Source of the DNA: a virus
Length of the DNA: 23,924 nt
Virus record (IMG/VR): IMGVR_UViG_3300021093_000360
Span: 1 to 23,924 of that record
Reading direction: 5' to 3' (one strand)
In this document: piece after piece, positions 5,240 to 22,141 of the stretch
How positions within the stretch are numbered: the first letter of the stretch is position 1
Layout of the letters: every line of letters starts with the position of its first letter
Notes under the pieces: model-generated
Seen by the model: only the letters and a program-made list of their open reading frames with translations
Databases searched by the model: none
Told to the model about the DNA's origin: nothing
Program-made: the position numbers and the translations under genes

Positions 5240-5818
5240 ATGATTGTGATAGGCAACGGTGAAAGCAGAAAACACATTAATTTTGATTTAATTAAAGAAT
5301 TGAAAGTGGGCTGTAATGCCATCTGCAGAGACTGGCACATGGATCATCTCATCTGTTGTGATAGAAAAATGGTATTGGAGGCACTCACGAGGATTGATTT
5401 CAACAAGACCAAAGTGTACACACGCACAGACAATGTTCACATGGACAAAAATTTATTGGCATTGCCCTCACTGCCCAAAGTTTCAAAGGATCGCAGAGAC
5501 CAACCCATACACTGGGGCAGTGGTGCATATGCTGTGCTGCTGGCCAGTGGCATCAACAGCAACTCTTTGATCAAATTGATAGGATTTGACTTGTATGGCA
5601 ACCTCAATTTGCTGAATAATGTGTACAAAGACACACAAAATTACAACAGTTCTGCCAGTCACAGCGTGGATCCTAGATATTGGATATATCAAATGGCATT
5701 GTGTTTTGACGCTCATCCACATCAGAATTATGTGCTGTATCACAAACCAAATTTCAATGTGCCTGCAGAGTGGAATTCAGCCAATCTATCATTTAAGCTA
5801 TTGACAGATTTCAGTTAA
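5240..5818 (+). CDS. Rossmann-like protein, possible GT42/DUF115-type glycosyltransferase
   Basis: This 192-residue protein opens with MIVIGNGESR followed by VGCNAICRDW. That arrangement resembles the 'xGNGPSL...RCN' nucleotide-sugar pocket of family 42 sialyltransferases (CstI/II) and of MptE-like DUF115 proteins. A second match is GSGAYAVLLASGI...LIKLIGFDLYG (about 93-120). It parallels the 'SG.Y....A...G...IYL.GIDFY' strand-helix-strand of the same fold. The third member of its neighbourhood, at 6383, is a DxD glycosyltransferase, which fits a sugar-modification role for virion or DNA. The predicted start follows a late promoter by 36 nt. The catalytic assignment is not certain; a nucleotide-sugar-binding fold is the safe statement. 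Confidence 0.6.
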   Translation: MIVIGNGESRKHINFDLIKELKVGCNAICRDWHMDHLICCDRKMVLEALTRIDFNKTKVYTRTDNVHMDKNLLALPSLPKVSKDRRDQPIHWGSGAYAVLLASGINSNSLIKLIGFDLYGNLNLLNNVYKDTQNYNSSASHSVDPRYWIYQMALCFDAHPHQNYVLYHKPNFNVPAEWNSANLSFKLLTDFS

Positions 5819-5829
5819 GACATTATATT
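5801..5829 (+). promoter_or_regulatory. sigma70-like (early) promoter, TTGACA-N17-TATATT
   Basis: A perfect TTGACA at 5801-5806 is followed 17 bp later by TATATT at 5824-5829. It overlaps the 3' end of the upstream gene and reads toward the QueD-like gene at 5922. A late octamer begins 4 bp after it, giving a stacked early plus late promoter. Confidence 0.6.
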
Positions 5830-5833
5830 TGTC

Positions 5834-5841
5834 TATAAATA
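5834..5841 (+). promoter_or_regulatory. T4-type late promoter TATAAATA
   Basis: Exact late consensus, 8 nt before the ATG of an 18-codon ORF (5850) and 80 nt before the QueD-like gene. It lies directly downstream of the sigma70-like promoter at 5801. Confidence 0.6.
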
Positions 5842-5921: not shown

Positions 5922-6371
5922 ATGGTAAAATATTACAGTACAAAAACTTACGGCAATGATCGTGGATTCAGCTGTGCGTTTAGACAGCCCAATGCCACAC
6001 ATTCACACTGTTCACAAGTTCACGGCTACAGTTTAGGTTTTAAATTTGTGTTTGAATCAGAACATCTAGACAATAACAATTGGGTGTATGACTTTGGTGA
6101 CTGCAAATGGATCAAACAGTATCTGGAAGAAACTTTTGATCACACATTGGCCATAGATGAAAATGATGAATATCTGCCTGAATTGCGCAAGTTAGAAGAA
6201 AAAGGATGGTGTAGATTGAAAGTGATGCAGGGAGTGGGCTGCGAAAAATTTGCACAACATGTGTATGATTATGTGGCACCTGCCATACTACTGCGCACAC
6301 AAAACAGAGTGAGATTGCACAGCGTGGAAGTTTTCGAACACGGAGCCAACTCGGCTATTGTACAAAAATAA
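5922..6371 (+). CDS. queD: QueD-like 6-carboxytetrahydropterin synthase family protein
   Basis: This 149-residue protein belongs to the 6-pyruvoyl/6-carboxytetrahydropterin synthase fold, the second step toward 7-deazaguanines (queuosine and phage DNA modification). Visible marks are HSHCSQVHGY (27-36), DFGDCKWIKQYLEETFDHT (57-75), GVGCEKFAQHV (104-114) and a terminal VEVFEHGANSA with Glu136. Cys30 aligns with the catalytic cysteine and His34 with one zinc ligand. The usual first zinc histidine is Phe20 and the third is Tyr36. A group of proteobacterial homologues that I recall shares this HSHCxxxHGY form, so another histidine (H27 or H29) may complete the site. No other 7-deazaguanine gene is in the window. 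Fold call is firm, reaction less so. Confidence 0.85.
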   Translation: MVKYYSTKTYGNDRGFSCAFRQPNATHSHCSQVHGYSLGFKFVFESEHLDNNNWVYDFGDCKWIKQYLEETFDHTLAIDENDEYLPELRKLEEKGWCRLKVMQGVGCEKFAQHVYDYVAPAILLRTQNRVRLHSVEVFEHGANSAIVQK

Positions 6372-6374
6372 ATA
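6367..6374 (+). promoter_or_regulatory. T4-type late promoter AATAAATA
   Basis: AATAAATA overlaps the stop codon of the QueD-like gene and lies 8 nt before the ATG at 6383. Same geometry as the other late promoters in the window. Confidence 0.5.
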
Positions 6375-6382
6375 TTGACGTT

Positions 6383-7084
6383 ATGTCAAATCAGTATGTG
6401 GTGTGCGTTAAGCACGGCAGCAAGTATGATAGTCAATACGTGAATGTGTTGCACAGCATGGTGCAGCGCTATCTCACAGTGCCACATGAATTTGTGTGCT
6501 ACACAGAAGATCCAAGAGGTTTAAATTCCAACATTGTGGTGAAAGCACTGCCCAGCATACATTTGAAAGGATGGTGGTACAAAACCATGCTGTTTAATCC
6601 ACAACTGGAGTGCAAAGGCACCATATTATTTTTGGATCTGGATTTAATAATTTTTAGAAACATAGATTATTTGTTCACACACGAGCCAGGCAAATTTGTG
6701 GTGTGCAAAGACTTCAATAGATGTTTTCAACCACATTGGCAAAAGTTCAACAGCAGTGTGGTAAGATGGTGCACAGGGCAACACGCACAATTGTACAATA
6801 ACTTTATCAAAGATCCCGTGGGTATCAGTAGAAAATTTCATGGTGATCAAGACTGGTTGTTTGATCAGGTCAAAAAAGATTTTGTGTATTGGCCTGAAGA
6901 ATGGATACAGAGTTACAAATGGGAAATGCGTGGAAATCCTAAATTGGTACGCACTGCTATTGGTAAAAATTTTGTAGGTCCAGGTGAACCTAAAATAAAA
7001 AAAGCCACATCTATTGCAGTGTTTCACGGCGATCCCAATCCGAGAGAGTGTGTGGATCCTTGGTGCCAACAACATTGGAAATAG
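6383..7084 (+). CDS. GT-A fold glycosyltransferase
   Basis: This 233-residue protein starts with a short Rossmann-type strand (YVVCVKHGSKYDSQYVNVL) as in GT8-like enzymes. The key feature is FLDLDLIIF with D85-x-D87, the metal and nucleotide-sugar-binding DxD at the end of a hydrophobic strand. Further conserved-looking blocks are LKGWWYKTMLF (61-71), FHGDQDWLF (152-160) and VFHGDPNP near 214-220. These match the acceptor and terminal histidine loops of the fold. It probably transfers a sugar to phage DNA, a virion protein or a host glycan; donor and acceptor are unknown. It follows a late promoter by 8 nt and has no Shine-Dalgarno. Confidence 0.8.
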   Translation: MSNQYVVCVKHGSKYDSQYVNVLHSMVQRYLTVPHEFVCYTEDPRGLNSNIVVKALPSIHLKGWWYKTMLFNPQLECKGTILFLDLDLIIFRNIDYLFTHEPGKFVVCKDFNRCFQPHWQKFNSSVVRWCTGQHAQLYNNFIKDPVGISRKFHGDQDWLFDQVKKDFVYWPEEWIQSYKWEMRGNPKLVRTAIGKNFVGPGEPKIKKATSIAVFHGDPNPRECVDPWCQQHWK

Positions 7085-7102: not shown

Positions 7103-7131
7103 TTGACTTGGATCAAAATATAGCATATACT
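7103..7131 (+). promoter_or_regulatory. sigma70-like (early) promoter, TTGACT-N17-TATACT
   Basis: TTGACT at 7103-7108 and TATACT at 7126-7131 are spaced by exactly 17 bp. The hexamers are identical to those at 21939. Only five bases (ACAGC) separate the -10 from the UvsE ATG, predicting a leaderless transcript. Confidence 0.65.
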
Positions 7132-7136
7132 ACAGC

Positions 7137-8189
7137 ATGATTAAAAGGATAGGTTTTTGTTGTGATTATTTTCATCCGGATCGCACGCTCAGCAAAAAAC
7201 AATTGGAAGAGATTGAACGCCCACGCAACACCAGAGCAACCACTGTGCGTTGGCTGAACGAACACAAAGAACAAGCAGAAGAAAAGTTAGATTTCATATT
7301 CAAACACAACATAGAATCCATAAAAAATTTAATTTTTAAAGTGAGTGAGTTACCACACAGCAGACGCATGTGTAGAATCAGTTCAGGCATACTGCCTTGT
7401 GCCACTGAAAAAACTTGGAGATATTATTGGGACAAACCTGAAATCATCAATTATTGTGAAAAACATTTTGCAGAGGCAGGTGAATTGGCTCGCAAACATG
7501 ATGTAAAGATATCATTTCATCCAGGACAATACACTGTGCTGGCTTCTGAAAACCCTGACATAGTGGAACGCAGCATAGACGAATTTGAATATCACGTGAA
7601 CATGGCCAGGTGGATGGGATTTGGTAAAAAATTTCAAGATGGCTGCAAAATCAATATACACATATCTGGTAAGCAAGGACCAGAAGGCATTATCAAAACA
7701 CTGCCTAGGCTGTCACCAGAGGCTCGTAATTTGATCACTATAGAAAATGATGAAATGGGCTGGGGCCTGGATGCCACACTGAAATTGGAAAAACATTTGG
7801 CACTGGTGTTGGACATACATCATCATTTGATCAGAGAAGAGGAATACATACAAGCCAACGATGACAGAGTCAAAAGAGTGGTGGATTCATGGCGAGGTAT
7901 GAGACCCACCTTGCATTACTCCTATTTTAGAGACGAAGCTATGCAGCACGCATTTGATGCCAACACTCAACACATGATGCACAAAAGTATGCTGCCCATA
8001 AAAGATTTGATCACATTAGGATGCAAAAAAGTTAAATTGCGATCTCATAGTGATATGTTGCCTAATGCAGCACAGAATGAATGGGCCTTAAGTTTTTTAA
8101 AAGCATTTGACATTCAAGTGGAGGCTAAATCTAAGAACTTGGCTGCTGAACAACTGTGGAATCAGGCAGTTGAATTGAATTTGATATGA
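7137..8189 (+). CDS. uvsE: UV damage endonuclease (UvdE/UvsE family)
   Basis: This 350-residue TIM-barrel endonuclease would nick DNA 5' of UV photoproducts and other lesions, starting alternative excision repair. The diagnostic segments occur in order: RISSGILP (80-87), SFHPGQYTVLAS (126-137), HISG (175-178), TIENDE (201-206), LDIHHH (225-230), LHYS (259-262) and a terminal LRSHSD (301-306). These supply the expected metal-binding set of His128, His175, Glu203, Asp226, His229/230, His260 and His304. Length is normal for the family. uvsE genes are known in marine T4-like phages. The start is fixed by a promoter whose -10 ends 5 nt upstream. The stop overlaps the next ATG (ATGA). Confidence 0.93.
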   Translation: MIKRIGFCCDYFHPDRTLSKKQLEEIERPRNTRATTVRWLNEHKEQAEEKLDFIFKHNIESIKNLIFKVSELPHSRRMCRISSGILPCATEKTWRYYWDKPEIINYCEKHFAEAGELARKHDVKISFHPGQYTVLASENPDIVERSIDEFEYHVNMARWMGFGKKFQDGCKINIHISGKQGPEGIIKTLPRLSPEARNLITIENDEMGWGLDATLKLEKHLALVLDIHHHLIREEEYIQANDDRVKRVVDSWRGMRPTLHYSYFRDEAMQHAFDANTQHMMHKSMLPIKDLITLGCKKVKLRSHSDMLPNAAQNEWALSFLKAFDIQVEAKSKNLAAEQLWNQAVELNLI

Positions 8190-8524
8190 GTGAAAAAACC
8201 AAACAACTGCTGCAAAAATTAAAAGAGATCACCGACAAAGAACCACAGCCACAAATCATTGATGGAGTGGTGGTCAGCAATGGAGGGGCCGATAGGATTT
8301 ATCAATATTTTCATGGATCTGTGTATTTGGTCAACAAGGACAACAGCTATTATCAGGGCAAAATTACTAAAAAATTTATAAAAGTCACCAATGATCGAGG
8401 AGAAACATTTAGATCATATGTGTATGAGACTGCGGATGGTAGATGGTTTGATCGTGCAGGAAGACCCACCACCAAGCCCAAACAAACAGAAGCAGAAGAT
8501 TCTGAAGAAAGTCAAACTGAATGA
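8186..8524 (+). CDS. Small protein with acidic tail, unknown function
   Basis: This 112-residue protein is translationally coupled at both ends: its ATG overlaps the UvsE stop and its stop overlaps the SOD start (ATGA each time). Residues 1-20 are a basic/acidic helix (KTKQLLQKLKEITDKE). Residues 24-90 look beta-rich (IIDGVVVSNGGADRIYQYF; YVYETADGRWFDRAG). The last 20 residues are a disordered acidic tail (TEAEDSEESQTE). I do not recognise a family. The gene order implies co-expression with the repair endonuclease and the superoxide dismutase. Confidence 0.75.
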   Translation: MSEKTKQLLQKLKEITDKEPQPQIIDGVVVSNGGADRIYQYFHGSVYLVNKDNSYYQGKITKKFIKVTNDRGETFRSYVYETADGRWFDRAGRPTTKPKQTEAEDSEESQTE

Positions 8525-9267
8525 AAGACGACGAACCTTTTTGGACACCACCCAAAGATCCTTGGAAGTTGGAAGGATTTGAAGATGAAGCAAAGCGTTT
8601 TCTTAAATACTTGAAAACAGTGAGTGTGCAAAATTTAGAACCACATGATTTGATTCAAGCACGCAGAAAACCAGGACTGAGAAAAATAAATAAAGTTATG
8701 TCAAGCGAATTAAAAAATTGGATAGCACTGTTTGAAACCAAGAAAAACAGAGAAAAACAACTGGTGCTGGAAAAACTACCCTATGCCACCAAGGATCTGG
8801 CACCCATATTGAGTGAAAACAATGTGGATTATCACTACAATGTGCTCAGCAGAGGCTATGTGGAACGCTACAACAGCGGCAAAGGTGATCCTGAATTCAA
8901 TTATGGTGGAGCCAAACTGCACAATTTATTTTGGGCTCAATTGCAGTCACCCAAAGGCAGCAATCTACCCAAAGGCAGCATAAAAGAGTTCATAGAAAAA
9001 AAATACAAAGATTATGACATATTCAAGGAAGAACTGCTTTCAGCAGCCATGCGTCTGCAGGGATCTGGCTGGGTGTATCTCAGCAAAATTGGTGACATCA
9101 AGTTAACCCCCAATCAAACATATCGCTCAGACATTTTGATGCCTATAGACATGTGGGAGCATTCTTTCATGGATTATGTGCCTGCCAAAGACGCCAAAAA
9201 AAAATACATTCTAAACATTCTTAAAATTGTCAATTGGAATGTGATCAACGATAGACTGAATCAATAA
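8521..9267 (+). CDS. Fe/Mn-type superoxide dismutase with an N-terminal extension
   Basis: The C-terminal two thirds of this 248-residue protein are a Fe/Mn superoxide dismutase, converting superoxide to H2O2 and O2. It opens with LPYATKDLAP (86-95) in place of the usual 'LPYxxxxLEP'. The four metal ligands are visible: H105 (VDYHYNV), H134 (GGAKLHNLFW), D210 and H214 (IDMWEHSFMDYV). Gateway Tyr113 is present. Gly129-Gly130 before His134, together with N198-Q199 late in the chain, resembles the Mn pattern rather than the Fe pattern (Gln before the second His). The usual HH pair after the first ligand is L109-S110. About 80 residues precede the domain, unlike the normal ~10. No signal peptide. 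SOD genes are uncommon phage cargo; co-transcribed with uvsE. Confidence 0.85.
   Translation: MKDDEPFWTPPKDPWKLEGFEDEAKRFLKYLKTVSVQNLEPHDLIQARRKPGLRKINKVMSSELKNWIALFETKKNREKQLVLEKLPYATKDLAPILSENNVDYHYNVLSRGYVERYNSGKGDPEFNYGGAKLHNLFWAQLQSPKGSNLPKGSIKEFIEKKYKDYDIFKEELLSAAMRLQGSGWVYLSKIGDIKLTPNQTYRSDILMPIDMWEHSFMDYVPAKDAKKKYILNILKIVNWNVINDRLNQ
8949..8980 (+). repeat. 18-bp-period tandem duplication inside the SOD gene
   Basis: The 14-mer ACCCAAAGGCAGCA occurs at 8949-8962 and 8967-8980. It encodes PKGSNL-PKGS in the loop after the second metal ligand. The in-frame period of six codons suggests a recent slip duplication. Confidence 0.8.
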
Positions 9268-15900: not shown

Positions 15901-16514
15901 TTGCATTGGGCGCAGCTGGTGGCACATTTGCAGGAGCAGGCAAAGTCAGCATTGTGTTGGGTGGTGCAGTGCCTTTCATATTCGCAGGAGATGCAGATGA
16001 TTCTACCATAGTAACACCTGGAGTGTATCCAGATGCCACTGACTCCTACACCATTGGAAATTCCACCTACAAATATAAAACCATATTTGCCACCACCTTC
16101 CACGGCACAGCAACCAATGCACTCTACGCTGACTTGGCAGAAAATTACACTGCAGATGTGCAGTATGACGCAGGCACAGTGGTGATGTTTGGTGGTGATA
16201 GAGAAGTGACCATCAGTACGGGTGAAGCCAATCACAAATTGGCCGGAGTGGTCAGCACCAAGCCAGCATTTTTGATGAATGAAGAATTGCAAATGACTGC
16301 ACCTTGTGCAGTGGTGGCAGTGGCTCTGCAGGGTCGCGTGCCTTGCAAAGTTGTAGGCAAAATCAACAAAGGTGACATGCTGACCACCAGCCACACACCT
16401 GGAGTGGCTCAAGCCATCAAAGGCACAGCTGAGTTGGGCACTGTGATAGGTAAGAGTTTGGAGCATTATGATTCAGACCAAGTGGGCATAATTGAAATAG
16501 CGATAGGCAGATAA
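9951..16514 (+). CDS. Giant tail-fibre/adhesin-like virion protein
   Basis: The protein has 2187 residues, starting directly after the hesB stop with AAGGA at 9936-9940. Residues 1-36 form a module (NxGxxGNDGTGDSIRDAFRK then NENFTELY) shared with the next two proteins. Two 'ATKxYVD' joints (about 324 and 1580) are typical of phage fibres. From about 340 (NLFVSTLGDDN) to about 950 the composition suggests a right-handed beta-helix, including ESGTYLEDLPIKVPTGVSIK near 660. Two helical inserts are recognisable, CERDLGYILDGIVIDL near 453 and TRRYTGLIVDALHLDL near 781. The C-terminal 150 residues (from IGNSTYKYKTIFATTFHGTA near 2034) form a domain ending many marine phage fibres (YADLAENY, AGVVST, LQGRVPCKVVG). 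I infer host recognition at the baseplate or fibre. Confidence 0.88.
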   Translation: MVKQIINTGVEGNDGTGDSIRDAFRKANENFTELYAVFGQGGQIGFTSLSDTPDVLGALKVPVSNASGTALTMRSFTSGTGISISLSNPNTIQITNTGSEFVADTSPTAGGPVDLAGFGIGRAAVSSTAVSDFNATHGASITIDDLVITKGYADQRYIKAGGGSGVSGQIRVREEPVDATQYTKTIGSYTAGNVVITAHGYDTSVNGLEITYETTGSAATGLVDGNNYFLRFVNENQLSLHSTEAGAVNNTGKITVSGGTGVQTITDAAYDSSLQGFFSSDEALPRRSVVRRQGDDMEGALFLFDHPGDLAGLGTPNGAEDLQAATKFYVDNTSYSSPTNLFVSTLGDDNMEGVPPDKVGSSFSYAYKTINAACAKAEEIVFATPVELGPYKQTITYNSGAGLSLVVTEGVTSSSGYNNAKVLIDGNRTFIIKQMIAFVNTTYPNFTYDELICERDLGYILDGIVIDLLAGLNANVRSIQAGVRYYSSQSGAKAVNQQLTETLAGINYAKSITNTILQNVAVTPIYDAGYSQFFDAPSIVDATGRASVAAKFDIITNIIQNGISAVPPEVEGSTYTLTIDNGSFGNVDQNDSNNQDLIPGKIVRGKVSGAIGRIVTVSAGAAVDTLTVILLEPLEFSVGEGLEFASPFKRANITIRVESGTYLEDLPIKVPTGVSIKGDEFRRVLVRPKPRLSQSYWASTFFYRDTVIDGLTVTSTNFGRHYLQDPTDTLDIGPSYVNAGNYDTFAETILDAKLAVQNAVITYVNSLLSPGLLNAADEAETRRYTGLIVDALHLDLKRGGREQILEQQGNFLGVALSAQQQQGITYIATYINASVIASASITVKNIVTNAMTSIVYAFNASYNPPLDNREMDMFMMGEATILRNITGQSHGGFMCVLDPESQVLNKSPYIQTGASFSASTNAQAFRGGMFVDGGCGNMTMNVDIAGSVGPFELAVYSDPDEGLFIRKPLTPTAFFISGARFQVDAIKDYDGPAGTATLLLNAASNSGLGFTATSPDPFPIVLQTAGNKSLLSNDFTQVNDMGYGLLATNGALSEQVSMFTYYCYTAYYALNGAQIRSLNGSNANGVYGLVSEGSDPLELPDEVLLVENMVQVGKVYDNGTTYVNPAAGLTVYVYDLEYIPFNRSELEIDHDPLDSSVSLGVTRYEINNIEATPITVTGASVTRSGTVYKLNLSTAGSNNTATGGLQDDLYNLQIVTIRASQAHRFSGVIDVSPTRPSTALVFYNDNNDTVYRTTAFNITNSIGTALPANNVITTFDTAFDVVRLQIRPASAVLSTFAGAGGTTMGATAGDDVIAIELITEAADITRLNTGNMSFGWDGKTHRVINYIDRGTFATVQIADLTSINTSSAVVGIHSPLVRGAGTENIVLRCGLLANSNANITVKISTCRATGHDFLDIGSGSFNDSNYPNSVFGDPASTPTQENEVQERGKGRAFYVSTDQDGVFRVGRFFTVDQGTGSVTFSASIALSNLDGLGFKRGVVAAEFSTDSAMTDNASDTVPTESAVRGYVDRRLHYTNAGTLVVNPIGPGALARDGSTSFTGNISAGGFRLTTLGAPVSALDAATKTYVDVQLGSTDQLEDIRNVDIAGFAASQILIFNGRKRIFTNPESGGTFAVGNTLTGSVTGSTATIVDYDAVTLPAGTAARRVTYQLISGPDFTTADSVSTGGGVSAQVIDGPMNEIANAVADPASDITLTATRTTAQTNLNIQIVAGSILNADVNSAAAIAQSKLAMQAATTRVNAVGISQADLGLAAFDSGDFTVTNGWVSLASGGVDLADLPNVSQYQTFGKNTAGSGSPAIVGYADILNFGGALQDTEFATEVTAAPTDPGNVLIRTGTSPYAYAFSNVTTSAEVNSLIKSDGAGNVDVGSLYVDGSKLLDANTGTNTNIFTTRGGIDFLTVVGNTVTNTTLTFTGRKFNFGGNTLPNSPTADTLQATGVNEGKGITTPHLFTRFIETDTVESGGTGIALGAAGGTFAGAGKVSIVLGGAVPFIFAGDADDSTIVTPGVYPDATDSYTIGNSTYKYKTIFATTFHGTATNALYADLAENYTADVQYDAGTVVMFGGDREVTISTGEANHKLAGVVSTKPAFLMNEELQMTAPCAVVAVALQGRVPCKVVGKINKGDMLTTSHTPGVAQAIKGTAELGTVIGKSLEHYDSDQVGIIEIAIGR

Positions 16515-17516: not shown

Positions 17517-17524
17517 GATAAATA
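17517..17524 (+). promoter_or_regulatory. T4-type late promoter GATAAATA
   Basis: GATAAATA lies 6 nt before the ATG at 17531, in a 20-nt intergenic gap. The spacing predicts initiation at the start codon. Confidence 0.55.
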
Positions 17525-17530
17525 CTGCAT

Positions 17531-19882
17531 ATGAGCAATCTGTGGAGTCAACCTACTGGATATTCTCTTGGCACTCTGCCAGAAAGAACCATCACATCTA
17601 TCAATTTGCCAGTGGACAACACTGCCACAGTGAGCCTCATAGCAGGTGCACTGCCCAACGGACTTAGACTGCAGAATTATGCCATAGTGGGCACCACACT
17701 GGAGGTGCCTAGAACTACTCAAAGCAGATTTGTGTTGCGAGCTTCATTGTCGGGGCTGATACAGGACAGAACCTACACAATCACAGTGTCAGGTCCTGAT
17801 GCACCAGTGTGGCTCACACCAGCAGGTGATTTGCCACTGGGAGTGAACAATAATCTTTTTATTTTGGACAGTTCTTTTGTGGATTATCAATTGGAAGCCA
17901 CAGACACAGATCTATCAGCAGGTGATGAATTAGAATATTATATTGCTAGAGGAGATGGCACTCTGCCACCCGGCATCAGATTGACCAAAACAGGCAAGCT
18001 CACAGGTGTGATTGATCCCATATTAGCACTGGATGCCACTGCCTCCACAGGAGCCTATGACACCAGCAGTTATGGTGATTTTCCCTATGATTTTGGTTTG
18101 CGCAGTGCCAATGGATTTTCCAGTTTTTACTATGATGTGGATTTCTATGACTTTTCTATTCCCACACGCAGTCCTAGAAAATTAAACAGATATTATGAAT
18201 TCACAGTGAGCGTGAGTGATGGTGACACAATCACCAAGAGAACATTTAGAATATTTGTGGTGGGTGATGATTTTTTACGTGCAGACAACACCATACTGCA
18301 GGTAGGCAGTGGAGTTTTCACATCGGACGGCACATACATTCGCACGCCACAATGGTTGACTCCAAGAGATCTAGGATATAGAAGAGCCAACAACTATTTG
18401 ACATTATATCTGGAATTGTATGATCCCAACAAATTGACTGGTTTTGTGGCCTACACACAGAGACCCACCAATGATGACAGCAGCCCAAGCATCCTGCCAC
18501 CAGGCACTGCTCTAGACAGCACTTCTGGTGAAGTGGCTGGCAGAGTGCCCTATCAACCAGCAGTGACCAAATCATACAAATTTACAATTAGAGCCACAAG
18601 ATTTGGACCCAGCAACGAAACTCTAGCAATCAAAGACAAAACATTTGAAGTAAAAATACTGGGCGAAGTAGACAGTGTGATCACATTCAACACAGAAGAA
18701 AATCTAGGAGTGATCAATGCTAATTTTATCAGCACGCTGGCTGTGCAGGCTGTGACCACTGTGCCTAATGCCAAACTGAGATATGTGGTCACTGCAGGAT
18801 CATTGCCTAATGGTTTGGTGTTGGCTTTGGATGGAGAAATTATTGGCAAAGTAAGACAGTTTGTGCAGGGAAATTTATTAGGATTGACTGTGTTTGACAG
18901 TAGAAATTTCACGTTGGATAACAATGACACCAGCATAGACAGATTGTTTGAATTTACTGTGGAGGCAAGAGATCAATTTGGATACAGTGCCACAACAAAA
19001 ACATTTAGATTGTCTGTCACAGCCACCAGTGACTTGTTGTACAGCAATCTTTTTGTGAGACCCTTGCTGAAACAAACACAGCGTGTGTTGTATTTGGGAC
19101 TGGTAGGCAATCCAGAAATATTCACTCCTTCCAGTATCTATAGACCCAACGACTTACAGTTCGGCATACAGAAACAATTGAGCATGTTGATATATGCAGG
19201 CATAGAGACCAAGACTATCAATCATTATGTGGCAGCCACCACCAAGAATCATCGTAGAAAAAGATACTTTTTTGGAGAACTCAAAACTGCAGTGGCCAAA
19301 ACTCCAGGATCCAATGACATTGTGTATGAAGTTTTGTATGTGGATATGATAGATCCCATGGATGATGCCAAAGATCAAATTGTGAGTGAATTCACCATAC
19401 AGAATACTCAAACAGTCAAAATTAATCAGGCAAATTTAGAACAAAAAGACAACAGCAATTATGATTCCACTCAAGCAGGTAATCCTGCAGATCCTTTTGC
19501 ACTGCGTCCAAATCAAGCAGTGATCAAAGTGGACAGTAATGCAATCAGCGTGAGCAATAACAGCAGCAATAAAAGATACATCAGCAGCACCAGCAACATG
19601 CGAAAAAATTTAGCAGCAGTTGGTGAAACGGAAAATGAATTTTTGCCGCTGTGGATGCGTACTCCGCAAACAAGTTCAACACAGCCTTTGGGTTATGTGA
19701 AAGCTGTGCCCATTTGTTACTGTCAGCCCGGAACCAGCGCAGCCATACTGGCGGCGTTGAAGAACAGCGATTTTGATTTCAAAAATATTGATTTTGAAAT
19801 AGATAGATATGTGATAGACAGCACCACCGAAAGTGGCACAGAACAATATGTGCTGTTTTCCAATTATCAATATAACATTTAG
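17531..19882 (+). CDS. Large virion protein with Ig-like (He_PIG-type) repeats
   Basis: This 783-residue structural protein is built from repeated beta-sandwich units. The marker 'LPxGLxL...G.xxG' appears about four times: LPNGLRLQN near 41, LPPGIRLTKTGKLTG near 147, LPPGTALDSTSGEVAG near 324 and LPNGLVLALDGEIIG near 425. Each sits ahead of a YxFTVxxxD-type strand (YEFTVSVSDGD, YKFTIRATRFG, FEFTVEARDQFG). This is the pattern of putative Ig/cadherin-like domains that phages use for weak surface binding. Residues from about 515 onward are different: a region with basic patches (KNHRRKRYFFG) and a Cys-containing end (VPICYCQPGTS). N-terminal MSNLWSQPTGYSLGTL is not the shared module. A virion surface or baseplate role is inferred. 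Confidence 0.8.
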   Translation: MSNLWSQPTGYSLGTLPERTITSINLPVDNTATVSLIAGALPNGLRLQNYAIVGTTLEVPRTTQSRFVLRASLSGLIQDRTYTITVSGPDAPVWLTPAGDLPLGVNNNLFILDSSFVDYQLEATDTDLSAGDELEYYIARGDGTLPPGIRLTKTGKLTGVIDPILALDATASTGAYDTSSYGDFPYDFGLRSANGFSSFYYDVDFYDFSIPTRSPRKLNRYYEFTVSVSDGDTITKRTFRIFVVGDDFLRADNTILQVGSGVFTSDGTYIRTPQWLTPRDLGYRRANNYLTLYLELYDPNKLTGFVAYTQRPTNDDSSPSILPPGTALDSTSGEVAGRVPYQPAVTKSYKFTIRATRFGPSNETLAIKDKTFEVKILGEVDSVITFNTEENLGVINANFISTLAVQAVTTVPNAKLRYVVTAGSLPNGLVLALDGEIIGKVRQFVQGNLLGLTVFDSRNFTLDNNDTSIDRLFEFTVEARDQFGYSATTKTFRLSVTATSDLLYSNLFVRPLLKQTQRVLYLGLVGNPEIFTPSSIYRPNDLQFGIQKQLSMLIYAGIETKTINHYVAATTKNHRRKRYFFGELKTAVAKTPGSNDIVYEVLYVDMIDPMDDAKDQIVSEFTIQNTQTVKINQANLEQKDNSNYDSTQAGNPADPFALRPNQAVIKVDSNAISVSNNSSNKRYISSTSNMRKNLAAVGETENEFLPLWMRTPQTSSTQPLGYVKAVPICYCQPGTSAAILAALKNSDFDFKNIDFEIDRYVIDSTTESGTEQYVLFSNYQYNI

Positions 19883-20483: not shown

Positions 20484-20717
20484 ATGTTGCATCCACTGGG
20501 CGAAGATCTTAGCGGATACAGTATATCGCAATTGGAATCCAAGTTGATTGAACTGAGAAAAAAATATTTCCAAACTGTCAATCCTGAACTAAAACAACAA
20601 GTTGCCCTGTTCATAGATATGTACAATGAGGAACTCAAATCCAAATTAGCCCAAGAACAAATTAAAATGGCAAAAGAGACCGGAAAAGATCTTGACAATT
20701 TGATCAATATTGATTAA
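20484..20717 (+). CDS. Small helical conserved phage protein, unknown function
   Basis: The product is 77 residues from the ATG at 20484; the open frame upstream overlaps the previous gene and lacks a better start. The sequence is helical and charged: LSGYSISQLESKLIELRKKY, then NPELKQQVALFIDMYNEEL. It ends with a basic/acidic helix (KLAQEQIKMAKETGKDL). This pattern resembles small unnamed proteins that I recall from T4-like cyanophages, with a 'LExKLxELxKKYFxTxNP' core. It has no cysteine and no membrane segment. The start follows an eight-base T tract without a Shine-Dalgarno. An early-type promoter for the next gene lies in its last codons. Confidence 0.72.
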   Translation: MLHPLGEDLSGYSISQLESKLIELRKKYFQTVNPELKQQVALFIDMYNEELKSKLAQEQIKMAKETGKDLDNLINID

Positions 20718-20720
20718 AAT
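20692..20720 (+). promoter_or_regulatory. sigma70-like (early) promoter, TTGACA-N17-TAAAAT
   Basis: A perfect TTGACA at 20692-20697 and TAAAAT at 20715-20720, spaced by 17 bp, overlap the end of the preceding gene. The -10 ends 9 nt before the ATG at 20730. Confidence 0.62.
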
Positions 20721-20729
20721 AGTGTGTAA

Positions 20730-21251
20730 ATGCGCACAGATTCTTTGGGTATTCCTATATTCGATTATGACGATGCTGTGAACCTCATCTACAGAGGTCA
20801 ATCATCACTGCTGCCACACTTGCTCTTTGAAAAACATCAGGTGATAGATCAATTCAATAGATCGGCTGAAGATTTGTCTGCCGATGTAGAATTAAAAAGC
20901 TACACACCTTTAGATGTCAATCAAAAAGAATTTGATTCATTGCTGCAACAAACTTGGTTTATGCCAGACAGGGCAAAAATATTTGATATTGAAACTTATG
21001 TGAAACAAATCACTCCAAAAAATGCAACAGCACAGCAGAGAGTGAATGAAGAACTGGCAGCATTTCGCCAACACAACATGATAGATGTGTTGAAGTTTCT
21101 ACATTATCTGGTGGAAACACTGAGAAAACATCAAATCACTTGGGGAGTGGGCAGGGGCAGTTCTGTGGCCAGCTATGTGCTGTATCTTTTGGGGGTACAC
21201 AGAATAGATTCCATTCAATATCAGCTGGATTGGCGAGAGTTCCTAAGATAA
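20730..21251 (+). CDS. DnaE-like (family C polymerase) palm fragment, probably non-catalytic
   Basis: This 173-residue protein ends in a region matching the palm of bacterial DNA polymerase III alpha: WGVGRGSSVASYVLYLLGVH (138-157) followed by RIDSIQYQLDWREFLR. In E. coli DnaE the corresponding segment is GPGRGSGAGSLVAYAL, then DPLEFDLLFERFL, followed by NPERVSMPDFDVDF with the first catalytic aspartates. Here the stop codon comes exactly after 'FLR', so the Gly-Ser motif is kept and the catalytic aspartates are missing. The N-terminal part (MRTDSLGIPIFDYDDAVNLI) also resembles DnaE text before the palm. It may be a nucleotide- or DNA-binding accessory factor. I recall similar short proteins in T4-like cyanophages. 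It is expressed from an early-type promoter. Confidence 0.7.
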   Translation: MRTDSLGIPIFDYDDAVNLIYRGQSSLLPHLLFEKHQVIDQFNRSAEDLSADVELKSYTPLDVNQKEFDSLLQQTWFMPDRAKIFDIETYVKQITPKNATAQQRVNEELAAFRQHNMIDVLKFLHYLVETLRKHQITWGVGRGSSVASYVLYLLGVHRIDSIQYQLDWREFLR

Positions 21252-21573: not shown

Positions 21574-21942
21574 ATGATACTCTACAAGACCCTTGAAACA
21601 GATATTATACCTGTGGGTGATAGAGTATTGGTGTCTGACATGAACTTTGGTGAAGTGCAGACAAAAGGTGGCATCTTGCTTTTAGATGATAACATGCAGA
21701 ATCACGGTATCAAACCTAGATGGGCCAAAGTGTATGCCAAAGGACCTCGCAACAAAGAGGATTATCAAGTGGGAGATTGGATCTACATCGAACACGCTAG
21801 ATGGACCAGAGCAGTCAACATCAAAAAAGGTGATCAAATATTGGCCATTAGAATGGTGGATCCGGAATTCATATTGATGATGGGCAAAGAGAAGCCAAAA
21901 GATTGGTACTACAACAAGTTGGCCATGGTGAATAAGTCTTGA
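21574..21942 (+). CDS. 31: GroES-like co-chaperonin (T4 gp31 type)
   Basis: This is a 122-residue co-chaperonin that would cap host GroEL and help fold the major capsid protein, the known job of T4 gp31. The opening IIPVGDRVLVSDMNFGEVQT matches the GroES start 'IxPLxDRVLVxxxxxEETS'. Residues 24-38 form the mobile GroEL-binding loop with the hydrophobic GGILLLDD. The barrel continues with WAKVYAKGPRN...YQVGDWIYIEHARW and a KKGDQILAIR strand, as in GroES. It has about 25 residues more than GroES at the C-terminus, and T4 gp31 is similarly longer. It starts one base after the upstream stop. Its stop codon overlaps the -35 of an early-type promoter. Confidence 0.85.
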   Translation: MILYKTLETDIIPVGDRVLVSDMNFGEVQTKGGILLLDDNMQNHGIKPRWAKVYAKGPRNKEDYQVGDWIYIEHARWTRAVNIKKGDQILAIRMVDPEFILMMGKEKPKDWYYNKLAMVNKS

Positions 21943-21967
21943 CTTTCGGCGTGCTTTGTCATATACT
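21939..21967 (+). promoter_or_regulatory. sigma70-like (early) promoter, TTGACT-N17-TATACT
   Basis: TTGACT at 21939-21944 and TATACT at 21962-21967, spacer 17 bp, overlap the stop of the gp31-like gene. The -10 ends 6 nt before the ATG at 21974 with GACAGC between, nearly the same as ACAGC at the UvsE promoter. Confidence 0.65.
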
Positions 21968-21973
21968 GACAGC

Positions 21974-22141
21974 ATGAAATTTCCTGAAAACAGAATTAAA
22001 GGAGTTAATAACACAGGATTGGTAGGAATAGCGCTGATGCTGTGTCACATCACAGGATATCTCAATCATTGGACATGGGCTTTGTTGTATGTGCCACTCA
22101 TATTGAGTGCCATAGGACAAGAATATCTCCACAGAGACTAG
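21974..22141 (+). CDS. Small membrane protein, unknown function
   Basis: The product is 55 residues from the ATG at 21974; an upstream TTG at 21956 falls inside the promoter and is rejected. A short polar start (KFPENRIKGVNN) leads to two hydrophobic segments, TGLVGIALMLCHITGYL and WALLYVPLILSAIG. They are joined by NHWT and followed by a short charged end (QEYLHRD), giving a probable membrane hairpin. I do not recognise the family. It is the first gene behind an early-type promoter and precedes the clamp-loader gene by 9 nt, so it should be made early. Confidence 0.68.
   Translation: MKFPENRIKGVNNTGLVGIALMLCHITGYLNHWTWALLYVPLILSAIGQEYLHRD

Follow-up and report, generated by a model that had tools for sequence, protein, structure and literature searches.

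Expression from leadered mRNAs by way of Shine-Dalgarno sites has its textbook example in the T4-type phages. Leaderless initiation involves the 70S ribosome with fMet-tRNA, and leaderless mRNAs, those of phages included, are already known. The lambda cI mRNA begins at its AUG (PMC9031893), phage transcripts are described as 'often leaderless' in the AR9 paper (PMC5312081), and phiYS40, a large Thermus myovirus, steers its host towards translating leaderless phage mRNAs, reportedly with a rise in host IF2 and a fall in IF3 (PMC3594737). Among bacteria, Caulobacter has 375 leaderless mRNAs that are translated as well as others (PMC4117421), and the 171 of S. meliloti are all on AUG (PMC3616915). 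In these Alphaproteobacteria transcription starts at the A of the AUG, which is also what is predicted for the phage clade considered here, though there the cases are experimentally mapped bacterial genes and here they are predictions. phiYS40 and the clade would have leaderless phage mRNAs in common; however, the former is a Thermus phage while the clade consists of marine T4-superfamily phages with canonical sigma70-type and T4-late-type boxes. Lambda cI and other such phage mRNAs are cases of one gene each, where the clade has gene families by the dozen and promoters of two classes. Within the open-access literature on cyanophages, pelagiphages and jumbo phages no report of a genome-wide leaderless layout in T4-type marine phages was found, and its scale and T4-like setting appear to be new.

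How does the locus compare? The window, meaning the whole 23.9-kb IMG/VR virus fragment analysed, has genes for DNA ligase, 6-pyruvoyl-tetrahydropterin synthase, superoxide dismutase-like, PolIII-alpha-like and clamp-loader proteins, and at 7137-8189 on the + strand one for a 350-amino-acid UvsE/UvdE-type UV damage endonuclease (UvdE family profile PF03851, E=2.2e-37, 129 bits with a cut-off of 24). Ahead of it, on the same strand, is a sigma70-type promoter (7103-7131) with its -35, TTGACT, at 7103-7108, a 17-nt spacer at 7109-7125 and its -10, TATACT, at 7126-7131, after which a discriminator of just 5 nt, ACAGC (7132-7136), leads into the ATG at 7137-7139; the initial annotation had read this arrangement exactly. 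The promoter agrees with the sigma70 consensus (TTGACA-like, 16-18 nt, TATAAT-like) at 10 of 12 positions, and its homologs mostly do so at 11-12; it is presumably early-type, going only by its host sigma70-like hexamers. A host sigma70-type RNA polymerase that binds TTGACT and TATACT and starts 6-8 nt after the -10 would begin at the A of the uvsE ATG, predicted as 7137, or no more than one or two nucleotides away; at the level of sequence, a start inside the ATG is indistinguishable from one 1-3 nt before it. Starting there, the mRNA would lack a leader and have no room for a Shine-Dalgarno sequence, and ribosomes would initiate directly on the 5'-terminal AUG. The two ORFs that follow on the + strand, 8186-8524 (function unknown) and 8521-9267 (superoxide dismutase-like, Pfam Sod_Fe), each overlap the preceding stop codon by ATGA; they probably belong to the same operon as uvsE and would be read through translational coupling. 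The superoxide dismutase-like protein carries an N-terminal extension.

Is such a spacing an accident? An exact second copy of the promoter, which had also been pointed out initially together with its near-identical discriminator, is at 21939-21976 (+): TTGACT (21939-21944), 17 nt, TATACT (21962-21967), the 6 nt GACAGC, and the ATG at 21974 of a 55-codon ORF. Its product (21974-22141, +), just upstream of the gp44-like clamp loader, is a probable membrane protein of 55 amino acids for which a Pfam profile search gave no match, and it too is predicted to be leaderless. The window has no other exact TTGACT/TATACT pair. With the motif relaxed to TTGAC, 17-19 nt, TANNNT, 5-7 nt and ATG, it occurs twice in the window, whereas 100 first-order Markov sequences contain it 0.3 times on average and never in the exact version. 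Nevertheless, the supposition that AT-rich DNA before start codons yields sigma70-like hexamers accidentally can draw on the lack of excess of promoter-like sites as such in the window: hexamer pairs with up to two mismatches number 4 where 2.3 are expected, which is not significant alone, and scans of the window for consensus promoters gave no excess over shuffles. For that reason the window by itself could not decide. Two further promoters in it deserve mention. TTGACA-N17-TAAAAT, at 20692-20732, is 9 nt before ATG 20730 of the PolIII-alpha-like ORF, whose ortholog in one relative (L215 in contig G002) has the 6-nt leaderless spacing, so that it may be a drifted or very-short-leader case. 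The window's best sigma70 match, TTGACA-N17-TATATT at 5801-5841, adjoins an ATAAATA box at 5835 and is followed after approximately 90 nt by the 6-pyruvoyl-tetrahydropterin synthase ORF at 5922.

A lack of hexamer conservation among relatives had been named beforehand as a finding on which the leaderless prediction would fall; the test was run, and the prediction withstood it. Relatives of uvsE came from 80 loci in viral contigs and 2 in genome contigs, 80 of which had scorable upstream sequence, making 81 with the window. In 78 of the 81, down to approximately 59% amino-acid identity, a sigma70-type promoter is present with 5-7 nt between its -10 and the ATG (a script scored 77; L040 and L057, for which it had picked an overlapping -10, were added, and L064, which it had accepted on a weak 8/12 match, was dropped). 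Its -35 is TTGAC(A/T/G) or TAGACA, its spacer 16-17 and rarely 15 or 18 nt, and its -10 TATAAT, TATACT, TACAAT, TAAAAT or TATTAT. By script scoring, 47 of 51 clusters formed at 90% nucleotide identity have the layout. The three exceptions, L049, L064 and L071, have purine-rich, SD-like stretches in its place. The first suspicion that chance was unlikely has thus hardened, with conservation in relatives making chance untenable.

Since the genes are tightly packed on one strand, with the preceding ORF ending at 7084, just 19 nt before the -35, and since a T4-late-type box precedes the ORF at 6383, uvsE might be expressed mainly by read-through on a leadered polycistronic mRNA, with the promoter at 7103 being secondary. 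However, DNA upstream of uvsE varies between homolog groups, and the promoter is retained in those 78 despite it; both routes could operate together, and dominance of read-through is considered unlikely. Slightly less likely still is that the promoters are real but that the working mRNA has a short leader, the polymerase starting elsewhere or a downstream start codon being used. Start sites do generally vary by a few nucleotides, and the case is argued from sequence. Yet a later start would not fit, as only 1-5 codons separate the ATG from the conserved RIGFCC strand of UvsE. The N-termini are MIKRIGF, MRIGF or MFDESIQRIGF, and for each of the three lengths the -10 is 5-7 nt before that homolog's own ATG, so that the promoter moves along with the start codon as the N-terminus lengthens or shortens, which also counts against a short leader. 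In 70 of 77 homologs a pyrimidine (C or T) immediately precedes the uvsE ATG, as expected if the A that follows is the transcription start. The spacing in the window and in its homologs supports the leaderless mRNA initially predicted for uvsE, and that uvsE and dozens of other genes of the clade are transcribed from their ATG and translated without a leader is, on the evidence of sequence, held with considerable confidence.

The dozens of other genes emerge from counting, in 18 related contigs totalling 1.30 Mb, the distance from the -10 of sigma70-type sites to the nearest ATG of an ORF. It spikes sharply, with 28, 71 and 24 sites at 5, 6 and 7 nt. Several of the contigs are related and raw counts overstate independence, so non-redundant counts, with related proteins removed, are given alongside: 64 of 217 sites are at 5-7 nt where approximately 8-11 are expected (p about 2e-31 against an even spread). 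At those distances the start codon is ATG in 129 cases, GTG in 1 and TTG in 3. Such restriction to ATG is what is expected, as leaderless initiation needs AUG (PMC3616915), and it is a further point against a short leader. Spacings of 8-13 nt are scarce, in agreement with L. cremoris, where leaders of 4-14 nt are absent (PMC10986495). Such starts were counted in approximately 69 families, 30 of which have them in more than one contig, though some of the single-contig ones may be spurious. By family the layout is present for uvsE in 16 of 17 genomes, for a DnaJ-like protein (a name assigned by eye) in 9 of 10, for the 55-amino-acid protein in all 5 contigs where its orthologs were found, and for DNA ligase in 4 of 12. 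A pyrimidine precedes the ATG in 51 of 69 families with a background of 51% (p=9e-5), and the first 36 nt of genes with the layout fold more weakly than gene interiors. Shine-Dalgarno-like cores accompany 3% of the genes with the layout and 36% of the remainder, though the deficit is partly forced as the -10 occupies the Shine-Dalgarno position. The initial opinion that a leaderless mRNA would be out of the ordinary for a phage repair gene has to be corrected; within the clade the layout is common, at late-type boxes as well, and leaderless phage mRNAs are known from phiYS40 and lambda cI.

Does the same apply to the late class? T4 transcription starts about 5-6 nt after the late box, and in the clade a start at that distance would again be at the A of the ATG. 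The clade has the same box as T4 late promoters (gp55-dependent TATAAATA), though in T4 it is 12 nt or more upstream of the ATG, and the mRNA leadered, while in the clade there is a spike at 5-8 nt. There 113 of 298 sites of ATAAATA, the T4 late promoter core, are followed by an ATG after 5-8 nt, or 63 of 136 once redundancy is removed, and none by a GTG at that distance. Three of the boxes are in the window on its + strand: one (2975-2989) ends 5 nt before ATG 2987 of a 300-amino-acid ORF, another (17518-17533) 6 nt before ATG 17531 of a 783-amino-acid ORF, and a weaker case (6368-6385) 8 nt before ATG 6383 of a 233-amino-acid ORF. Contigs G001 and G003 have weak gp55-like matches (E about 1e-12). 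No such ATAAATA spike was found in T4, Syn9, P-SSM2, PA5oct, Phosso or Atu_ph07. Boxes at this spacing do occur in the Pelagibacter phage HTVC008M, 12 in all, each at an annotated gene start and nine with a spacing of exactly 5 nt; in NC_020484 their ATGs are at 6280, 7562, 19456, 31132, 49760, 59714, 75559, 109429, 117049 and 142360 on the + strand and at 16007 and 18916 on the - strand. On present evidence it is fairly probable, with less assurance than for uvsE and its sigma70-type counterparts, that a large share of both early (sigma70-type) and late (gp55-type) mRNAs is leaderless in this marine T4-superfamily clade, as a lineage-specific feature matched to a host that initiates well on 5'-AUG, with HTVC008M sharing the late half. 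The layout itself serves dozens of genes behind sigma70-type promoters and many others behind ATAAATA boxes.

What is the clade? The T4-type major capsid protein gp23 (PF07068) is encoded in two of the larger contigs that carry uvsE relatives, G001 and G003, and not in the window, which is a fragment; a DNA-level search with gp23 gave no match. The G003 protein shares 69.6% identity with its counterpart in Pseudomonas phage PA5oct and 68.5% with the one in Sinorhizobium phage Phosso, which places the virus in a marine T4-superfamily branch near PA5oct, Phosso and Atu_ph07. The sigma70-type sites at 5-7 nt, found versus expected, are 2 and 2.4 in PA5oct, 1 and 1.0 in Atu_ph07, 1 and 0.3 in phiM12, 2 and 1.4 in HTVC008M, 1 and 1.5 in Syn9, 4 and 2.0 in P-SSM2, and 1 and 1.1 in T4, i.e., no clear peak in any of these seven. 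Phosso has 2 with 0.5 expected, too few to judge, and an NCTB stretch also had too few sigma70-type sites for comparison. Several of the phages lacking the peak are equally AT-rich, and base composition is not the cause. With the spike being sharp, specific to ATG, conserved in orthologs and absent from phages of the same composition, chance has been refuted for the clade as a whole and, as an account of the uvsE promoter, is scarcely credible. What the sequences show is the layout itself, together with its conservation and its restriction to ATG and to the clade; the 5' ends, leaderless translation, the timing classes and the alphaproteobacterial host are inferences. A phage IF3 was considered as the cause of the layout and set aside, as IF3-like genes do not track it: there is one in G003 (L361:1225-1779, G003:C1 near 181826-182074; IF3_C E=2e-20), and others in Phosso (L362) and Atu_ph07 (L363), which lack the layout, and none was found in G001 or G002. 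IF1-like genes were also searched for, and none was found.

If promoters of both types, early and late, have been shifted onto the start codon in this clade, the way translation is initiated would be an evolvable, and perhaps host-matched, phage trait, and a widespread marine phage group would be a natural system for studying leaderless translation. For the late-type half, HTVC008M on cultured Pelagibacter is a direct test case. In practice, gene callers can fix start codons by the layout, and the distance from promoter to ATG might give a clue to the host.

The host of the clade is possibly an alphaproteobacterium. The permuted, two-piece form of tmRNA is known from Alphaproteobacteria, and ARAGORN predicts such an RNA in two of the relative contigs, G002 (L218:3170-3542, - strand) and G003 (L246:12238-12557, + strand), the two tags being ADAELVAA and ADENLALAA; these predictions, with the Pelagibacter host of HTVC008M, make such a host plausible. 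Across 58 genomes belonging to the class of G018, exact consensus promoters were too few for a host match to be judged. Among GTDB contigs, close relatives of uvsE were confined to L357 and L358, which are in marine MAGs (Rickettsiales MED657 and TMED46) and have the same leaderless layout; both are probably misbinned phage contigs.
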